A stretch of DNA of 64,000 nt from Undaria pinnatifida (taxonomy: Eukaryota > Sar > Phaeophyceae > Laminariales > Alariaceae): assembly GCA_012845835.1 (NCBI GenBank), contig JABAKD010000026.1, forward strand, positions 3,302,199-3,366,198. The letters are read 5' to 3'. The notes beneath the pieces are model-generated. The model ran no database searches. It was not told the DNA's origin and saw nothing but the letters and a program-made list of their open reading frames with translations. Positions 22,971 to 35,640 of the stretch are shown one piece after another. Both the position numbers and the translations under genes were made by a program. Numbering within the stretch: the first letter of the stretch is position 1; each line of letters opens with the position of its first letter.

Positions 22971-23106
22971 AGGGTGTAAATACCCTCGTGAAGGATACAG
23001 GTCGGTGACTCCCTTACTAATGCCAGGGTCAACAGGACTAAGACGTTCAACAAGACGTGCAACCTTGTTCTGCGCACGGAAACTGTATAACCCGCATTGA
23101 GGGGTA

Positions 23107-23838
23107 TGAAGGTGTGCCTAGCGGGATCCTTGACGATATGATCCTCAGAAGGGACAGGTGTGTCTATCGCGAGACCGCAGCTGACAGCAGTATAAAACCC
23201 AGATAGGTAGACTAGTAGATTATCTTATTGTTATCGAGCAAGGCTTGCTGATTTAGGTGAGGATACAAGAGTGAGAAAGAGAGGGGGGTGGGGGAAGTGG
23301 CTCGGCCATAGCCAAGCTACGAGAACCGACTCTCGTACTGGCAAGGAATACAAAGCGTCATCCAAGACGTCACCCGTGACGTAACTCCTGAGCGCAAGCT
23401 GATATCCGCCTACGTAGGACACTTCTACAAGGTCACGTGCGTGACATGCTGCATACTTGAAGAACTAAAGGCCAACCCCTAACACACCCAATCACATGGA
23501 GTCCTAGTGTTCTTCTAAAAACCATCCTGTCAGTAAATGCCGGCGCGCAGTTAGTTGTGTTATCTGGACCAATCAGCGCGGGGCGTGGCTCAAGGCAGGA
23601 TGCTACCATTGTTATACTCTTACTGAGCAGATTACCTGGCTCATTATACTGTCGTGCTCTACGATTCGTAGATCACACAAGAGTTTTTCTAAATCACACT
23701 ACCGATTCCGAATCCCACCGTCGATTTCGAATCACACGATAGTTGAATAACAGAAATCAGACCTTAATTAATCAACAGTGATGGGCGGTTGGTCTATTGC
23801 TCATACAGATGTCGCATACAAAGTGGAACACCATAACA
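23107..23838 (-). repeat. 3' LTR of the chromovirus
   Basis: In element orientation it begins TGTTATGGTG, directly after a purine-rich AGGATGGGCTAA, and ends ACCTTCA. It retains the canonical TG...CA ends. Confidence 0.92.
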
Positions 23839-23850
23839 TTAGCCCATCCT
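23839..23850 (-). promoter_or_regulatory. Polypurine tract of the chromovirus
   Basis: AGGATGGGCTAA on the element strand immediately precedes the 3' LTR. The block upstream (ATCTACGACTATTC) is shared with two neighbouring elements at 34519-34553 and 35382-35409. Confidence 0.7.
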
Positions 23851-24065
23851 GAATAGTCGTAGATTCAGATCACACGACGATATAGTGGTGGCTAACTAAG
23901 ACATATCAAGAAATCGGGAAGTGGATCGAAGATACTGCTATTCAAAACGACGACAGCTAATGAGGCTATAGATCAACCCACACCTCGCAATTGATGATTG
24001 ATGATCGATGATTAAGGCTAAGACGCCTCTGGTAGGGGGAATCCGTGGGCCTACTGCTAAACAGA

Positions 24066-24347: not shown

Positions 24348-24890
24348 CAAAAATATATATCCAGGTATAGTGAATGGCCATATCGAATAAGGGAAGCGAC
24401 AAGGTTACAGCAGCCCTAACGGCTCCGTAACTGGAACAACAAAGTTAGAGGATACCCTGAAGATGCCACAACTCATGAGGACGACGAAAACACAAACAAA
24501 AACATAAAACACTGAAGCTATGGTATACGCCAAATTCCCGACTTACTAACGGGGGGCTCCGCGGGGTTCATCGGCACTATGTAGGACACCGCGAGCCAGT
24601 CCCCCGGCCTGATGACGCTGAAGGCACCAGGATCCGTGGACGGCGCTCCGTGAAGTGGTGTAAGATGATGGCAGGAGGTCGATCGTGATCGGTCCTGGGT
24701 CATCGAAGAAGCGGACGATGTAGGAGTTAGCGGAAGAATTGTCGGTCGAGGCGCGATGGGCTACCTTGCCCAACCACCAGAGACCGTCGCGGGCTTTGTA
24801 CCAAAGGTGTGCCCCTGTGAGGAGGGTAGTAGAGCTGAAACGCTGGAGCCAGAGTGTGCGCGGGACGAGGCTGTACCCGGGAGCGACAAA

Positions 24891-25439
24891 TTAGTTGCCC
24901 CGGGCCCGCGTTAGTTCGCGGTGAGCGGCCCCGATGCGCATCTGCCGGTATAGGCGGTTGGACTGGCGGTGTTGTGAGGGGGTGCCCGACCAGTAGCGGA
25001 GGATGTGAAGCCGGTGGTGTTGTAGGTCTTGTTCGTGTTCCCATGAAGGGCTGAGAAGTCCGGGCCAATGGGTCTCGTACATAACCGCAAGGACGCCTCC
25101 CCGGCCGCGAACGAGTTGATGTCCCGAGATCTGGTCGACCTCGAGCCGTTCCGGCGGTGGAGCGACGTCGTCAAGGGTGGTGTTGAAGGGCGCGGACTTG
25201 GTGGAGAAGGAGTTGAGCACGTACTTGGTGAGGTCATCCGGAAGGTGCTCTGGTATGTCCTGAATGTCGTCGGGGCTCCGGCATGGTTTGCGGCGGAGAA
25301 TGGAGACGCGAGGCTTGGAGTCGCGTCCGGGCATGTCGGACGGGAGGTCGAAGTACAGGAGCTTGTCGTGAAGGGGCCGACCATCTGGGACAGCGGAGGC
25401 CGGCGCAGGGCCCATGGCGAGGATCTTGAAAGGGCCGAT
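24891..25439 (-). pseudogene. Chromodomain tail of the chromovirus
   Basis: In frame with the integrase after one TAG. It starts IGPFKILAMGPAP, followed by the region HDKLLYFDLPSD, and ends in a chromodomain-like stretch: LEVDQISGHQLVRGRGG, then VMYETHWPGLLSPSWEHEQD and LQHHRLHILRYW, matching the EVE..L..R...G...YLVKW.GY...TWE...L pattern. Chromodomains of this class are known to steer integration to heterochromatin. Confidence 0.75.
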
Positions 25440-26400
25440 CTAATTGAAGGATAGCTTGATCTTGAGAACTATCGCGTCGGTGCTCTTCCTGACGCCTTGG
25501 CGAATAGTAGCAGCGGAGTTGTAGATCCACGCCCAACCGTTGACGGAGCATGGGGGTAATGAGCGGAGGGTGTCCACAAGGGGAGCGTTGCGGCGGTCGA
25601 GACGCGATACGCAGATGGCGTGTAATTCCCGGACGGCGCGGTAGGCGCATTGTTGGCGGGCGATGGCGAGGTCGATATAAGCTAGCTTGTCCCCGTTGAG
25701 GCTTTGATGTCCACCGATGTTGGGGAGGTCAAAGACGGTAAGGGGGAGGCAGGGAAGACGACCCATGTGCACTTCGTTGGGGGCAAGTCCGGTGGCTGCG
25801 CTGACGAAGTTGTTGTACGCGCTCTCGACGCGTGGGAATTGAATATCCCAGTCATTTCTGTTCGTCGCCCACATTGGCGAGCATGAGGGCATGGTGTGGT
25901 TGACACGCTCGACACCGCCGTTGGTGCACGGGTGGTAGGAGCGGGTGGCAATCTTATTGATGCCGAGGCGGTTGTAGAGGACGAGGGAAAGTTTGGAGCA
26001 AAACTGGAGTCCGTTGTCGGAAAGTAGAGTTACGGGGCATCCCCAGAAAGGGATACATCGGTCGACAAGGATGTCGACGGTGCCGGAGGCGGTGAACTGG
26101 GCCTCTGTAGTGGCGTACATGTCGGTGCGACGGCTGAAGCGGTCCGTAAAAAGGAGGATGTAAGCGTTGCCCCGAGGCGTTAAGGGTGGTGGGCCGAAGT
26201 AGTCCACGCTGACGAGGATGCCGAGGTCGTTGGGTAACGACAAGGAAAGGTTAGGCCAGCGAATTGTTCGGCGCGAAGTCTTGCGCGCCTGGCACTTGAA
26301 ACATCAGCGGAGCCACCAACGGGTGGACATATCCATGACGATCTACCAGTAGAAACGCCTGAGCATGCTAAGTGTACGATAAACACCCAAGTGGCAAGAG
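25440..26400 (-). pseudogene. Chromovirus integrase (DD35E), zinc finger damaged
   Basis: The intact core frame 26243-25440 has VDYFGP (D14), LLSDNGLQF (D76) and GGVERVNH (E112), with 35 residues between the second D and the E. Upstream the HHCC zinc-binding part is recognisable as CFKCQARKTSRRT but contains two stops (in RFYW-stop and LR-stop). A TAG at 25440-25442 separates LKIKLSFN from IGPFKILAMG, where a GPFKIL motif normally continues the polyprotein. Confidence 0.88.
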
Positions 26401-26469: not shown

Positions 26470-28046
26470 TCAAGGGGTGGTGGTGTAGATCGCGGGCATG
26501 GCTGGTTGAATCCTTGTGTGGTCAGTGTACGAGAAGAACGGTGTTGTGGTGAGTGGTGTATAGCTGGCCTTTTGTGGCGAGGGATAGGACCTCGGCAAGA
26601 GGTGGACGACGAGTCGAGGGGATGTGGTCCAAGAGGTTGTCCGGTGGCGGCGAAGGTGAATCCAGGGAGAGGAACCGGAGGGTGGCGGAGCAGAGGGGCT
26701 CAGCGCGTTGTTCGCGCGCCCAGTCGGTGTAATTGTAGTGCTCGACGCAGGAACGGAGATGGGGGGCATCAATGGACTCGACAATGTGTTCCGGTAATCG
26801 AGGTGGTGCCAGCAGAGCAGGGGGGGGCGGGGGAGAGGGCCTTGGGTTGGTGGTCTGGGATGATGAGGGGGGTCCGGTTGGGGGGTGGTAGATGAGGTCG
26901 CGGTTGAAGGCGACGAGGTGTTGTGTATAGCGCGGCGTTGTGTGGTAGCAGGTCGCTGGGCGGCCGGCTTGGACCCAAGAGTAGGTGGCCGGCGCTGGGG
27001 AGACGTTGGTCTTGAAGCGGCGGTAGCCGAGGACCGACGGCCAAACCCGTAGTCCGCAGGAGTACGGGGAGTTCCAGCTGCAGCGGCGGAGTGGTTCCGG
27101 TTCCGAGAAGATATCAGGCCTGACGAGGTACGAGGAGAGATCGGAACCGAGACGCCCGAGGTGGACGATGGGGAGACGACGGGTGGCCTGCAAGCCAATC
27201 CGGGAGGAACGCCAGTGACCACGGCGGCTTTCTCGGAGCTGGAAGGAGATTCGTCGATGTGGTCGGAAGTAGAGATGTGGCCGACAGAAACTCTGCAAGG
27301 CGAGTTGACGGCGAGGTCTTGGGCAATGCATGGGCCGACGGGAACGCGGCGTGGCGATGTCGCGGCGGGGTCTTGGTCTTGGACAAACAGATGGCCGGTG
27401 GGAGCCCGTGAGGCGGTACCTCGACGGGGTCTTGGTCTTGGGCAACGTGGTGGCCTGCAGGAACACCGTGAGGCGATGTTGCGGCGGGGTCTTGGTCTTG
27501 TACAAAGCGGAGGCTGGCGGGAACGCCGTGAGGTGATGCCGTGGCGGAGTCTTGGTCTTGGGCAAGGCGGAGGCCGGCGGGAACGCCGTGAGGCGGTGCC
27601 CCGGGGGGTCTTGGTCTTGGACGAGGTGGTGGCCGATGGGAGCGCCGTGTGGCGGTGCCGCGGCGGGGTCTTGGTCGTAACGTGCACCAACGAAAGCGTG
27701 GTGAGGCGAGTCGGTGGTAAGGCCTTGAGCAAAGTGGGGCCGAAGGGAAGGCTGCAAGGCGATCCAGTGGCGGGGGCTTGGACCAAGCGGGGGCCGAGGG
27801 GAAGGCTGTGAAGCGAAGCGATGGCTGGGTGCGGGGCGGCGATGGCGGCCACAAATGGCCGAGTAACCTGGGCTGAATCCGAGGCGTCCATGCGCGGTCC
27901 GTGGCGACGTTAGTAGCCGAAATCATTATTGGTGCAGGGAAACGGGGGGATGGGGTGAAAACTGCTGGAGGCAGGTGAGACGAGCCCACCCAAGCCAATG
28001 CCCGGGGTAGACGGCTCGATTGCGGTGAAACCGCAGGCTTGGGCAA
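26470..28046 (-). pseudogene. Pol linker between RNase H and integrase, with expanded 60-bp repeat
   Basis: All three minus frames stay open for long stretches because the region is C-rich and repetitive. The original polyprotein frame is probably the one giving DWAREQRAEP and PPLAEVLSLATKGQLYTT just before the integrase, as expected for this position. The middle (about 27300-27690) is a tandem repeat. The long plus-strand frames across it are shadows. Confidence 0.6.
27300..27690. repeat. ~60-bp degenerate tandem repeat, 6-7 copies
   Basis: Each unit contains GGGGTCTTGGTCTTG, then a variable GCAAGGCGGAGGCC part, then GGCGGGAACGCCGTGAGG. Because the unit is a multiple of three, every reading frame carries a repeated peptide such as PRPRPR-type or KTKTP-type units. 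Confidence 0.85.
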
Positions 28047-29878
28047 GGTGGATGCTGACGGTGTCGCGGCTGGTGAGGCGGTTGGGTCCGGTGCGGTCGA
28101 GGTCGGTAGCCGGTTGCGGGAGGCGGGAAAAGGAAGTCGGCGTTGCCGTTTGACGAGCCTTTCCGGTACTGCAAAGTGTAAGTATATGCAAAGAGGAACT
28201 CCAACCAGCGCTGTACGCGGGCGTTGTGCTCGCCGACCTTGGTAATATTCTCAAGCGCCTTGTGGTCAGAGTAGGTGAGGAACTTGGTAGACCAGAAATG
28301 ACCGCGGAGACGTTTGATGGCCCAGACGATACCATCGGCTTCGAGGTCGAGGGGTGTCCAGGTTCGTTCGTTGTCGAGGGTGGTACGGCTGATGAAGATG
28401 ATAGGGCGGACAGAGCCGCCCGGTTGTTGCTGCTCGAGAGTGGCGCCAAAACCGTCGATGCTGGCGTCGCAAAAGAGGCAGAAATGGCGGGAGTTGTCGG
28501 CGACGGCGTCCCAGTCCGGATAGACCAGGTTCGGAGGAGTGGCGAGGTCATGAAGGATGCCACGGACGATGGCGTCCATTCCCGGGTTGAAAACCAACTT
28601 ATCACCTTGCTTCCGCAGGGCGTTAATGGGGCGGAGCCGGGTGAAGATGTTCTTCAGGAATTTTCGATAGTACCCAATGCCTTCAAGGAGTGAACGGGTC
28701 TGTTTAGTGTTCTTGGGCATGGGCATCTTGGTGAGGGTGGCGACCTTATCAGCGTTACGACTAACGCCGGAGGAGGAGATGGTATGTCCCAGGAAATCGG
28801 CGTCGGTGGCGCCAAGCTTGGCCTTGGCGGGGGAAAGTTTGAGGTTGTACTTCCGAAGGCGTTCGAAGCGAGAGTGGATGTTGGCGTCGTGAGCCGTGGG
28901 GTCGGGGTCGAAGACGATGACGTCGTCGAGGTACGCGGCGACGCGTTCGAGGTCTTTAATGACCTCGTTGATGACCTTGGCGAACCACCCGGGCGCCGCG
29001 TTGCTACCTTGAGGCATGACGAGCCACTCGAAGAGGCGGGTGGAGGTGCAGAAGGCGGTGAGTGGTATGGTGACCTCGTCGATGTTTATCTGGTGGAACG
29101 AAGACACAAGGTCGAACAAGGAAATTTTGCGTCCTTTTGCCGGGGAATCAAGAACCTCGTCAACGCGGGGGATGGGGAGCTGCCCCAAGGAGCTGATGGC
29201 ATGGAGCTTTTGGTAGTTCACCGTTATCTGGACGTTGCCTTCCTTCTTGGGGATGGCGACCATGGGGCTGGCGTACGGAGAGGTCGAGTGCTGAATAAGG
29301 CCTACGGCCAAGTATTAGTCGAGCACAGCATCGATTTTCTTGGCGAGGATATGGTAGATCCGGTAGGGGCGGGAGAACACGGGGGCGCTGTCCGGGAGAA
29401 TGGAAATCTTGAACGGAATAAGTGAGCACGAGCCAATATCGATTTTGGATGTGGAGAAGACGTCGGCAAACTCGCAGAGGACGTGTCCGAGGTCTTCGAT
29501 GACCGAAGGGGACCAGCCAGAACCGTGGAGGTCGAACGTAATGTTGCGTAAGTGTAGGGGTAGCCGATCCCAGAGTCGGAGAAAGCTTGTCCGTTGGTCA
29601 CCGCTCAGGCGCTGTAAGAGCTTGGGACAAGGTACCTTTGGTAGAGGGGGGGGCTCGGTCCGGGGAAGTCCGTCGTCGGCCACGGGGATGTTGTCGTGAA
29701 GGGCGTGGACGCCGGTGGGTAGTGGTTCCGTGGTAATGTTCTGAAGGGCCGATGTCGGAATTTGTATGAGAGCCATCCCACGGTAGGGTTGCAGCAGAAA
29801 GTCCCTGAACTCCTCACATGAACAACTCAATATCTCACCAGAAAAATGACTTCGAAGGCATTCGTTTGCACTACCCAA
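27926..29878 (-). pseudogene. Reverse transcriptase and RNase H of the chromovirus, split by a stop
   Basis: Two in-frame pieces, 29878-29315 and 29311-27926, are separated by a single TAA directly before the RT core (KIDAVLD, stop, YLAVGLIQHS). RT motifs seen: PYASPMVAIPKKEG, FDLVSSFHQI, LVMPQGSNAAPGWF, the catalytic AAYLDDVIVF (YLDD, residues 127-130 of the second piece), and FLGHTISSSGV. RNase H follows with LFCDASIDGFGATL, LEADGIVWAI and TYSDHKALEN, the three acidic sites. Homology fades near 28100, where the linker begins. Confidence 0.9.
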
Positions 29879-30115: not shown

Positions 30116-31045
30116 TCAGAGGAAACGCCGTAGCGGGGGAGCATGTCTACCAGGTAGTGGCCGGTGAGGGCTAGAGCACCCGAAGAGCGGACCAGAGTTG
30201 ACTGGGACAAGCGACGGCGTGGACGAAAGCGAGATTGCGTGCACGCCGGCGAACTCGAGGTGGAAGGTGTCGGTGGTTGGTCGGTCGCCGGTGATGAAGG
30301 TGGTGAGGCCTTCGGCGCGAGGAACCGAGAGTGAAAGTTCGCCCAAGATCGGTTGAGAGGGCTGACGGAGCAGGATGGTATATGTGCGCTGTGCAAAACG
30401 CATCCAGCTGTCGCATCCCAGCAGGAGGATAGGATGTTGCATGGTGCCCGCTGGAACAATGCACGCCCAAACCGCGAGCTCAGCGGAAGGGGTATCGCCA
30501 TGCAGAAACTGGATGCTGGGCCTGTTGGAGGTCGAGGTGAGGAGGGGGGCCGAATTGCCGAAGCCTCCCCAAGAACGAGGGGGCGCGTGTCGTTCGCAGA
30601 CGTTCGATCCGGCGTTGTTGTACTTTGTGCGGGTCCAGGCTTCAGCAGAGATACATTTCTGTGGAGAGTCGGTGTCCAAGAGGACTACCAGGCCGTAAAG
30701 GCTGGAGGCGGAGGGTGTGCTGTGTATTTTCATCCTGGTGTTAAAGGAGGCGTCATCGATGGTGGCAATGCCGTTCGAGAGGCCAGGTCCATCTTCGGCG
30801 ATAGGGGGCGGTGGGGTGTAAGAGGGGTCAAGTCCGGGTGTAATGGTAGAGAACAAAGTGCATGCCGGAGTTGTTTCTGGAAAGAACTGGGGCAGGATTT
30901 GGTCCAGTACGAAGGTTCCTGTAGGGGGTGCCATGGTCGTGCGGATCTCGTGGGTACCATTGTCCGAGGGCGAGACGCGAGTGGGGAGGGATGGAGGGGG
31001 GGAGTGGTCAAACTGGCGGCGGATCTTCATGAGGATGTCGCCCAA
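30116..31045 (-). pseudogene. Retrotransposon aspartic protease region
   Basis: Open frame of 309 codons that overlaps the NADAR end and runs into a retropepsin-like domain. The active-site loop reads VLLDTDSPQ (about residues 121-129), where DTGSP or DTDSP-like loops are expected. A later HPILLLGCDSWMRF fits the second conserved hydrophobic-Gly motif. The N-terminal part is Pro/Ser/Thr-rich and resembles no nucleocapsid. The frame ends before the RT, so the polyprotein is interrupted. Confidence 0.75.
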
Positions 31046-31649
31046 ATGGTTGAGTCCTCGCCACTGCTGAGGTCGGAGGGCTTGTCAGTCAGCAACCCTG
31101 AAGCCGATACCCCAGACGAGATCGTGCGGGCTGGCTTCGGCGAGAAACTTGTCTCCGGTTTCCAGTAGGTGCTGGCGGAAGGAAGGGGTCGAGAACTGAT
31201 GAATGTTTAGATAGAGGTGGTACTTTTCGCGTAAATTGTTTTCTGAATGACGAGGCTCCTTAACCCACAATCTACGGAACTAAGTCTTTTTTTTTTCCGC
31301 AAGATTCTCGTTGTGTACCTAGGCCATGGAATTTTCATCCGGTCGCAGTTTTATTTTTCTCCCAGTCGGGTTTCGGGAGAGGTCTCAAGTTCCCCAATGG
31401 AATGAACCTCAGATAAAATCAAAGGTTGGTGCACCCCAATCAAAGGCGAGGTTGCTCTTGTAAACAATGCCATAGCGATGATGTTCCCAGAGCCCTTGTG
31501 GTTGAAGTTGGATACGGAGCGTCCGAGACGTTTCTGGCGCGCAGGGTCTGAGGGGGATATCCCGGCGGATGGCTGCATCGCCAAAACTCTTGGCCTTCTC
31601 CGACATCATGCAATTCGGCGCAGTTGTAGTGCTCGTTGTCGACGGTAAA
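31012..31649 (-). pseudogene. NADAR (YbiA/DUF1768) domain in the gag position, broken
   Basis: Family landmarks appear in order on the minus strand: FTVDNEHYNCAE (31649-31614), then in a shifted frame MMSEKAKSFGDAAIRRD, then SDPARQKRLGRSVSNFNHK in another frame, WEHHRYGIVYKSNLAF (to about 31440), FRQHLLETGDKFLAEASPHD and VWGIG (about 31185-31105), and WRGLNHLGDILMKIRRQF (about 31067-31012). This matches the NADAR pattern EHY..AEQYMM..KA..FGD...W...R...L.STGD..L.EASP.D.IWGIG...W.G.N.LG..LM..R. The known roles of the family are linked to ADP-ribose and N-glycoside chemistry. Two frameshifts, one stop and a ~200-bp insertion (about 31220-31430) disrupt it here. No separate gag or CCHC knuckle is seen. 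Confidence 0.8.
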
Positions 31650-31656
31650 GGACGAT

Positions 31657-31674
31657 GTCCTGCCTACGACGCCA
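31657..31674 (-). promoter_or_regulatory. Primer binding site of the chromovirus
   Basis: TGGCGTCGTAGGCAGGAC lies 4 bp inside the 5' LTR on the element strand. It starts with TGG, the complement of a tRNA CCA end, and differs at two positions from the PBS of the small element at 33895-33912. Confidence 0.75.
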
Positions 31675-31678
31675 AATA

Positions 31679-32408
31679 TGAAGGTGTGCCTAGCGGGATC
31701 CTTGACGATATGATCCTCAGAAGGGACAGGTGTGTCTATCGCGAGACCACAGCTGACAGCAGTATAAAACCCAGATAGGTAGACTAGTAGATCATCTTAT
31801 TGTTATCGAGCAAGGCTTGCTGATTTAGGTGAGGATACAAGAGTGAGAAAGAGAGGGGGGTGGGGGAAGTAGCTCGGCCATAGCCAAGCTACGAGAACCG
31901 ACTCTCGTACAGGCAAGGAATACAAAGCGTCATCCAAGACGTCACCCTTGACGTAACTCCTGAGCGCAAGCTGATATCCGCCTACGTAGGACACTTCTAC
32001 AAGGCCACGTGCGTGACGTGCTGCACACTTGCTGTAGAACTAAAGGCCAACCCCTGACACACCCAATCACATCGAGTCCTAGTGTTCTTCTAAAAACCAT
32101 CCTACCCATAAATGCCGGCGCGCAGTTGTGTTATCTGGATCAATCAGCGCGGGGCGTGGCTCAAGGCAGGATGCTACCATTGTTATACTCGTACTGAGCA
32201 GATTCCCTGGCTCATTATACTGTCGTGCTCTACGATTCGTAGATCACACAAGAGTTTTTCTAAATCACACTACCGATTCCGAATCCCACCGTCGATTTTG
32301 AATCACACGATAGTTGAATAACAGAAATCAGACCTTAAATAATCAGCAGGGATGGGCGGTTGGTCTATTGCTCATACAGATGGCGCATACAAAGTGGAAC
32401 ACCATACA
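31679..32408 (-). repeat. 5' LTR of the chromovirus
   Basis: Direct repeat of 23107-23838. In element orientation it begins TGTATGGTG and ends CACACCTTCA. Compared with the 3' LTR it lacks one T in the TGTTA start and a 4-bp GTTA, plus about two dozen substitutions. Confidence 0.92.
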
Positions 32409-33639: not shown

Positions 33640-33892
33640 TGTTAAGATACGGCCTCGAAAGGCTTGAGATCATTTGGATGGGTTTCGTATGATAAGGTTG
33701 GCGTTTTATATTCGGAAAAGTTAGGAAGTAGATCGGAGGCACGTGCCTCCGATCTCAGAAGCTATCCGGGGCTCTGGTGGAAACGAATAAAGCTACGTCT
33801 CTACAAAGGAAAAGGAAGCGAGTACTCTCCGAGGACCTGCTCAATTCACAGACCTGCAGGGGGCACTCTGTGTCCCCACCTATAACTTCACA
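33640..33892 (+). repeat. 5' LTR of the TRIM-like element
   Basis: 253 bp. It contains a 24-26-bp perfect palindrome centred near 33745 (left half GATCGGAGGCAC). It lacks a 17-bp stretch (about CTTTAAGTACCTAAATT) found in the other LTR near 34580. Confidence 0.88.
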
Positions 33893-34553
33893 TGTGGCGT
33901 CGACGGCAGGACCGATGGCCGGCCGGTAGAAACGTAACGCATCATGGCGTGGCCCGTCGGCTCAGCGTGCTGCTCTCGCTTCCAATAGTCATGTGAATAA
34001 CGCGCGACGGAATCAGCGAACCGCAATTCAGCAGCGTTGTCGACTAAACACTTCCCTCCCTAGCTGGGCTATAGGTGTTGCCACCTTCCATCCCGGGTAT
34101 TTGTCGTTTCCTCGTCTAACCCCCCGCCATGCCGATGGCCCGCGGGAGGTTTTTCACATGACTTCTCACTTGTGTTAGCGCCTGTATTCCCCTCCATATC
34201 GACGAGGGATCGCGTCGCCATAGTACCTTATCTGTGATTGGTTTGCCGTAGAGCCTTTCCTGCCGCCTCCCGCCACACCGGCGACATGCAGCAGGTTCTG
34301 GAGCCTTTTCTGCCCCCACCCGCCACACGGGCGGCACACGGCAGGTTTTGATGGGTGACTTTTGCCTTGTTGTAGGGTCTGCCTTCCTTTCAACTGCTTT
34401 TCTTCGCGTGTTCCTGGCTCCATAGCCAGAAGGATAGAGGTGTGGGAGTGGGTTCTGAGGAGCCGCATCTTCGACTCATGGTTTAGCTCGTAGAACCGGA
34501 ATTTCCCCGAATCTCCCATATTTCTGCATATGCGACTCATCAGGGTGGGCTAA

Positions 34554-34822
34554 TGTTAAGATACGGCCTCGAAAGGCCTTTAAGTACCTAAATTTGAGAT
34601 CATTTTGATGGGTTTCGTATGATAAGGTTGGCGTTTTATGTTCGGGAAAGTTAGGAAGTAGATCGGAGGCACGTGCCTCCGATCTCAGAAGCTATCCGGG
34701 GCTCTGGTGGAAACGAATAAAGCTACGTTTCTACGAAGGAAAAGAAAGTGAGTACTCTCCGAGGATCTGCTCAATTGGCAGACCTGCAGGGGGCACTCTG
34801 TGTCCCCACCTATAACTTCACA
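34554..34822 (+). repeat. 3' LTR of the TRIM-like element
   Basis: 269 bp, near-identical to 33640-33892 apart from the small insertion near 34580 and a handful of substitutions. It carries the same GATCGGAGGCAC palindrome. Confidence 0.88.
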
Positions 34823-34829
34823 GTATGGT

Positions 34830-35640
34830 ACATACAACTCTCGGTAGCAAGTTGACTTGTTTGTGGTGAAATACACGCCGCAGACTTTCTTCTGAACAAT
34901 AGCCAAGGTGGAGCCCTCGAGACTGTACTAGAGAGAAAGACATTTCGTGCCCGCAGTTTCCTGACTGGTACATACTGTATTAATATTAACTTTGTAAATA
35001 CGTGATTTCGCTTATTTCCAATAGGTAGCGACTGCCTGTGATGCTCCATAACTCGCACGCGTTCTTTTCTTTCGTTTTTGCAATATTACGGAATGATACT
35101 CGCCCAATCCGCGCTAGAAGGTAATGTTTCCGCGTTTTGAACGACTCAGCCCTTCGTGTTTTCGTAGACCGATTGCTACTGGTAAACCGTAGGTACATAC
35201 CCTTTCTCGAGCTTTCACGGTTGTGAGCTCCACCATAGGGTTGTGAGCTCCACCTAGCATCATTATTACGAGGTGTGGGGGAATCTATAGCCTCATTTTC
35301 GTTTGTTTCGAATAGCCGCATCTTCGATCCCCTTTCCAATTCTGGATGTTTTGTTGACGACCTTTGATTGCCATTTGAGCTGCATCTACGACTATTCAGG
35401 TTGGCCTAATGTAATGGAGTGCCCTCCTCCGTAAAATGATAGTTTAGTCTATAGATTCGACGTGAAACCATGTCACTGTTGAGGTGAAACCACGTGATAT
35501 TAGATGTCACATTCACGTCAAGGCCATCATAGATGGGCGATAATGTAGGTGACGATGATGGGACGAGCAGGACGCCCCTCATCTCACTACCCTGCACTAC
35601 CCTGCACTACTCCAGCCCTGTTTTGTCGGCGTTTTAGCAT
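34830..35640 (+). mobile_element. 3' part of a third related LTR element, fragment
   Basis: At 35382-35409 a CTGCATCTACGACTATTC block and AGGTTGGCCTAA reproduce the PPT region of the two neighbours. Directly after it TGTAATGGAGTGCC resembles the chromovirus LTR start TGTTATGGTGTTCC. Internal text such as GCCGCATCTTCGA (35310) is also shared with the TRIM interior (34460). The second LTR and both outer limits are not identifiable. Confidence 0.55.

Follow-up and report, generated by a model that had tools for sequence, protein, structure and literature searches.

Here, the window, i.e., the whole 64,000-nucleotide stretch of Undaria pinnatifida DNA that was analysed, was found to carry what is probably a decayed, gag-deleted copy of a Ty3/gypsy element from a lineage whose Pol bears an N-terminal NADAR domain of the YbiA type, which would serve as an eraser of ADP-ribose on nucleic acid of the element. 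The pairing of NADAR with Ty3/gypsy elements, which a sequence-only reading of this DNA had regarded as possibly undescribed, is already known: a NADAR-bearing Gypsy lineage, e.g., Gypsy-12_Ec32, has been published for Ectocarpus (PMC12477816, Genome Biology 2025), and the window adds a member. Beyond that report, no further description of a NADAR-retrotransposon pairing was recognised among the papers listed in full-text literature searches; the passages of PMC7853720 deal with a nematode. Compared by published description, the Ectocarpus elements likewise have NADAR before the protease region, as do the window copy and its relatives; the window copy differs from that lineage, which is known here by description, in lacking gag and the Pol N-terminus and in having a broken NADAR.

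The element lies on the minus strand between a 5' LTR at 31677-32406 and a 3' LTR at 23105-23835, which form a direct repeat with 96% identity over 730 bases (LTR divergence of the copy about 4%), and at least 57 pieces matching this LTR were found in the genome (40 scored places of 411 candidates). Directly inside the 5' LTR, on the same strand, lies a PBS-like sequence (31658-31674) within a conserved block that stands beside the LTR in other copies as well. This block was recognised in a junction search with 311 candidates: of 40 places scored, 22 show a match that covers the LTR end and breaks off at query positions 101-104, which correspond to window 31660-31657. A similar PBS-like block adjoins the LTR of a long relative (C30:20922308-20936313), and the exact PBS 17-mer was found in 0 of the 34 loci examined. 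Neither a tRNA in the window nor any Rfam match was detected. Further along the minus strand follow a linker and an aspartic-protease-like region (30197-31009), for which a Pfam match is absent in the window frame and which was recognised by similarity to two related Pols (tblastn over 30197-31231, 42-47% identity); its motif reads LLDTDSP as compared to LLDTGSP in related copies. Reverse transcriptase and RNase H occupy a 462-aa open frame on the minus strand at 27929-29314 (PF00078, 4e-22; PF17917, 2e-25), the reverse transcriptase being 72-79% identical to its closest counterparts in other copies among the matches listed, and the integrase core lies at 25443-26303, minus strand (PF00665, 2e-8). 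The window element therefore shows the LTR pair, the PBS and the PR-RT-RH-IN order by which Ty3/gypsy elements (Metaviridae) are recognised, and the placement of NADAR between the PBS and the protease of such an element, as read from the sequence earlier, was borne out. An imperfect tandem repeat of about 60 bases is present at 27315-27701, in the RNase H-integrase linker.

The additional assignment of the element to the chromoviruses found no support. A chromodomain-like stretch is present on the minus strand at 24894-25181 and is conserved in relatives, but its match to PF00385 (E = 0.042) is below the cut-off, neither of two related Pols matched PF00385 at E values up to 5, and the sister lineage of Ectocarpus is reported to be unrelated to chromoviruses (PMC12477816). 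Next to it on the same strand, 24555-24890 encodes a conserved C-terminal stretch that is weakly PWWP/Tudor-like (PF00855, E = 0.19, below cut-off); it was aligned with eight related copies, PF00855 was likewise not matched by the two related Pols at this threshold, and such a stretch goes unmentioned for the Ectocarpus lineage in the passages of PMC12477816 that describe it. Two reader-type domains within one Pol would be unusual, if true. The sequence of the Pol C-terminus after the chromodomain-like part, WYKxxDGLWWLGK ... RFLDDPGP, is common to the window and its relatives. Predicted structures were poor, with a pLDDT of 35 for Gag and of 42 for the Pol C-terminus.

The presence of a NADAR domain on the minus strand, as claimed in the sequence-only reading, was confirmed by profile searches. 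DNA homology to the NADAR of relatives begins at window 31658. The first piece, FTVDNEHYNCAE (31614-31649), holds the first catalytic Glu; the second, MMSEKAKSFGDAAIRRD ... GIVYKSNL, is in another frame (31448-31630; PF08719, E = 9e-4, 19.9 bits, profile positions 37-98); and the third, DPARQKRLGRSVSNF, is in the third frame (31504-31548), the third piece having been read against the NADAR of relatives. The frame 31351-31605 by itself gave no Pfam match. Thereafter the domain is interrupted by an insert of about 247 bases (31198-31444, no strand assigned) that is absent from relatives, which match query positions 143-356 and 604-820 as neighbours, so that the insert has no counterpart. The fourth piece, LLETGDKFLAEASPHDLVWGIG (31094-31197), gave the best Pfam match (PF08719, E = 2e-8, 35.1 bits for 31094-31207, profile positions 97-135), and the fifth, WRGLNHLGDILMKIRRQF (31010-31075), a weaker one (E = 0.008, 16.9 bits, profile positions 141-162); all five pieces are on the minus strand. 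The curated cut-off of PF08719 is 35.1 bits for a whole protein, and the single window pieces are at or under it. With our own, window-free NADAR profile, pieces of 31000-31680 scored 44.7, 25.0, 22.0, 15.7 and 9.0 bits, as compared to 3.8 bits for the highest-scoring among 60 first-order Markov resamples of the same region and 6.3 bits for the next-best piece elsewhere in the window (4.2-kb tiles). The domain is frameshifted, its parts falling into three frames and being separated by the insert, and has no single open frame; the catalytic Glu, the catalytic Lys seven residues from it and the last-strand Glu are all readable, in different frames. A working protein is not expected from the window copy, which has decayed and contributes no function by itself.

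The place of NADAR in the lineage was derived from related copies in the genome (511,146,479 bases in 68 contigs). In a search with PF08719, all 150 scored places, of 1454 candidates, were above the cut-off, and 22 of them lie in open frames of at least 2000 aa. Twenty of the 150 places, chosen for long frames and spread, were taken as 10-kb stretches, and gag homology was found upstream of NADAR in 19 of them (the exception being L019) as well as in seven of the eight shorter loci L001-L008 (the exception being L001); the gag of related copies includes a CCHC knuckle. The border between gag and Pol was inspected in ten copies picked for a frame boundary there (L009-L015, L020, L021 and L024). 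In all ten, which belong to two families, a UGA follows RQPG[TI]FRT at the end of gag, and in nine, L011 being the exception, the long gag frame is in the frame of Pol, which would be compatible with a possible stop-codon readthrough. The open frame of Pol extends over 2302-2473 aa in eight of the ten copies, over 1907 aa in L021 and over 692 aa in L024. Two Pols that were scanned show a Ser/Pro-rich spacer, NADAR (residues 408-557 and 319-469, respectively; PF08719, 5e-50 and 2.7e-48), the protease region, RVT_1, RNase H, H2C2 and rve. Since related copies show an upstream gag and NADAR before the protease, NADAR is assigned to the N-terminal region of Pol, and the lineage is considered to have an ordinary gag. 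The earlier statement that no gag-like or CCHC sequence is present thus holds for the window copy, in which tblastn with two gag sequences (E up to 1e-3) detected no gag, but not for its relatives. These do have the ordinary gag that had been named as grounds for giving up the association, whereas the loss of the NADAR-like text that had been named along with it is not seen in them, NADAR being present before their protease. In the leader of one family-A copy (L033, 398-2287), a tandem repeat of about 84 bases was observed.

That NADAR itself occupies the gag position, as first proposed, is explained by a deletion. In the long relative C30:20922308-20936313, the LTRs of which are 84% identical to those of the window, the PBS block and a leader lie just inside the LTR, spacer sequence precedes NADAR, and about 5.4 kb separate the LTR from NADAR. 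By contrast, in the window and at C2:11857796-11858149 the PBS block runs directly into NADAR without these 5.4 kb, the two junctions differing by about 15 bases. The leader of the C30 relative and the start of its NADAR share a six-base stretch, ATTTTC, which fits a deletion at microhomology and would be compatible with such an origin of the junction. A gag-less lineage in which NADAR replaces gag as a particle or RNA-handling protein could draw on the fact that both the window copy and the C2 copy (C2:11852762-11858770) leave no space for gag between LTR/PBS and NADAR. Moreover, the C2 copy is flanked by a separate LTR pair with 81% identity to that of the window, and because of this 19% difference the gag-less form is present in at least two insertions. 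However, among the 40 places scored of the 311 candidates in the junction search, the window alone spans the junction (the C2 copy being outside those 40), the C30 relative retains its 5.4 kb and has ATTTTC in its leader as well as at its NADAR start, and 19 of the 20 long stretches carry gag homology before NADAR. On account of the upstream gag with CCHC in related copies, a gag function of NADAR was rejected for the lineage and is regarded as very improbable. Judged by these alignments, the missing gag of the window is a deletion in this copy, which also lost the Pol N-terminus. A third candidate for a gag-less junction, C19:11977024-11977542, was rejected, since about 190 bases without NADAR homology follow the PBS there before NADAR sets in with its second half.

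Purifying selection on NADAR was observed between divergent copies. Among the 55 pairs formed by 11 copies, 14 had saturated dS and gave no ratio, and all 25 computable pairs with dS above 0.3 had dN/dS values of 0.13-0.37. This range comprises nine pairs within family-A-like copies (0.13-0.31) and 16 pairs between families (0.13-0.37, with dS near saturation). The remaining 16 of the 55 pairs, with dS below 0.3, gave 0.28-1.5, as dead copies would. These values also bear on the suggestion that the domain could be a captured host fragment. A host gene or fragment that was captured or had landed beside the element, and that has no role in it, might be assumed from the window itself, where a broken NADAR stands directly at the LTR and PBS, and from the short, apparently stand-alone NADAR proteins of brown algae, which share 56-60% identity with that of the elements. 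Against this, NADAR has been reported in all families of the published sister lineage (PMC12477816), it lies within Pol-length open frames in the genome studied here, and it is under purifying selection between divergent copies. With the number of places above the cut-off in addition, a fragment without a role fits badly; it was rejected on copy number, Pol-length open frames and selection, and we consider it the least credible of the readings, with hardly any probability left to it.

The best solved relative of the element NADAR is PDB 8bau (E = 1e-14), which is presumably the Phytophthora NADAR that hydrolyses guanine-ADPr. Both 8bau and E. coli YbiA (2b3w) belong to the same domain family, and their catalytic Glu and Lys and last-strand Glu align with the element NADAR; unlike the Pol-borne domain, they are stand-alone enzymes. 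Eleven active-site positions were surveyed in 18 distinct element NADAR sequences, with E88 and K95 of the E. coli C7 NADAR, the YbiA-type Glu and the ADP-ribose contacts of the Phytophthora enzyme as reference residues (PMC11543638); the numbering of 8bau_A equals that of the paper with a shift of two, and this numbering and the last-strand Glu were assigned from our own alignment. Eight of the 11 positions are identical in 16-18 of the 18 sequences, namely the catalytic Glu (17/18), the catalytic Lys (16/18), the last-strand Glu (17/18) and the ADP-ribose contacts Lys75 (17/18), Arg79 (18/18), Trp89 (17/18), Asp130 (18/18) and Trp133 (16/18). At the other three, Tyr84 of the Phytophthora enzyme is Phe in all 18, Arg93 is Lys in ten and Arg in eight, and Asp86 is kept in none of the 18, this position also being different in all bacterial rows but one. 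As judged from the alignment, most active-site residues are retained in the element NADAR.

NADARs are described to remove ADP-ribose from guanine in DNA (PMC11543638; PMC11125620) and to act on guanine-ADPr in RNA (PMC11833690), and guanine-ADPr hydrolase activity has been described for the Phytophthora NADAR (PMC11543638). Following this, we propose that open copies give rise to Gag with CCHC and, beyond the in-frame UGA, to a Pol consisting of spacer, NADAR, protease region, reverse transcriptase, RNase H, integrase and a chromodomain-like end, so that NADAR, as part of Pol, would be carried into the particle together with reverse transcriptase and integrase. There, as its likeliest use, it would free the guanines in the RNA or cDNA of the element from ADP-ribose, and reverse transcription would consequently not be blocked. 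It is also possible, though in our view less likely, that NADAR is kept for another task, such as RNA binding, a structural role or the folding of the polyprotein, or small-molecule chemistry. This would be in line with the suggestion by the authors of the Ectocarpus study that the domain has a role in the processing of RNA intermediates (PMC12477816). Likewise in its favour, exon-wise searches of the genome, which can miss spliced genes, found no DarT-type writer (PF14487) and one exon-length PARP match over the cut-off. Moreover, some NADARs function in riboflavin metabolism. Plant and fungal NADARs in particular are named as the riboflavin-metabolism type in PMC11543638. Contrarily, the retention of eight of the 11 active-site positions argues against another task, as does the fact that every NADAR tested in PMC11833690, as described there, removed ADPr from guanine-RNA. 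The removal of ADP-ribose from element nucleic acid is therefore the function that we retain for NADAR, as the probable one.

Besides the Pols of this genome, NADAR was found in two Pol proteins from the protein searches. P0001 (1680 aa) is a Pol of the window's type with a NADAR that is 52% identical. P0002 (1415 aa, ENA source) has NADAR at residues 33-183 and a protease-like match, below the cut-off, at 207-295, followed by reverse transcriptase, RNase H and integrase; its reverse transcriptase is 29-33% identical to those of family A, family B, the window and P0001, which are 62-77% identical among themselves. A tree with the P0002 NADAR forced into one clade with the others was rejected (p-AU 0.016), the group having been named after the tree was seen and the branches being long. 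These sequence comparisons suggest that the NADAR of P0002 could represent an independent capture into the same place of Pol. A search with the first part of P0002 (three matches including itself) revealed no further Pol of its kind, and no relatives of P0002 were found in viral contigs. Furthermore, Tx1 LINEs of Crassostrea gigas likewise have NADAR in a retroelement by published description, although these are non-LTR elements with NADAR in ORF1, unlike the window element (PMC12477816). It is conceivable, as a tentative extension, that Ty3/gypsy elements acquired NADAR on at least two independent occasions, in the brown-algal lineage and in P0002, in each case next to the protease in the N-terminal part of Pol. 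Together with the Tx1 LINEs, such a convergence would point to a general strategy of retroelements in which a guanine-ADP-ribose eraser is taken into the particle against the ADP-ribosylation of element RNA or cDNA by a eukaryotic writer. A NADAR that is under purifying selection in one Pol and present in a distant Pol alike makes ADP-ribosylation against eukaryotic retroelements a testable subject.

Regarding the origin of the domain, the NADAR tree comprised 54 rows, i.e., 36 chosen of 125 proteins and 18 distinct sequences from 28 NADAR-bearing loci, with long branches and with five rows, including P0079, called host. One clade of this genome's elements, P0001 and four element-like metagenome proteins was not rejected (p-AU 0.35), nor was a grouping of family A with the short brown-algal proteins (p-AU 0.55) or a tree with elements and short brown-algal proteins on one side (p-AU 0.085). 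The named eukaryotic relatives of the window NADAR among the 120 matches listed are from Pylaiella, Ectocarpus and Scytosiphon. The short NADAR proteins of these algae (P0069, P0086, P0108 and P0113), with 227-252 aa and a Cys-rich N-terminus, are apparently located outside elements; this short stand-alone type was not found in the genome studied here among 150 scored of 1666 candidates. Since these brown-algal proteins (56-60% identity to the element domain) and myxobacterial NADARs of Nannocystis (59-61%, among the matches listed) are equally close, identity does not separate a bacterial transfer from the capture of a host gene. P0125 was dropped as a retroelement-like protein because Pfam gave it no reverse transcriptase match at E values up to 5. 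Many metagenome proteins (P0004-P0068) are 60-91% identical to the element NADAR, which implies that elements of this type are common elsewhere among sequenced material, and the NADAR domains encoded in seven viral contigs (L052-L058) share 45-51% identity with the one in the Pol of a copy from the genome studied here.

Additionally, sequences of other elements were observed near the 5' LTR. A second, small LTR element lies on the plus strand at 33640-34822, with direct repeats at 33664-33892 and 34594-34822 that are 96% identical. Its PBS-like sequence (33895-33911) has two mismatches to that of the large element, a similar PBS-like sequence precedes its 3' LTR, and a reversed piece of 47 aa at 33904-34044 is 77% identical to a Pol linker of family A. 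Finally, 35367-35423 is an inverted copy, with 81% identity, of 23825-23881, where the 3' LTR of the large element begins, and by this similarity it likely represents the end of a further related element.
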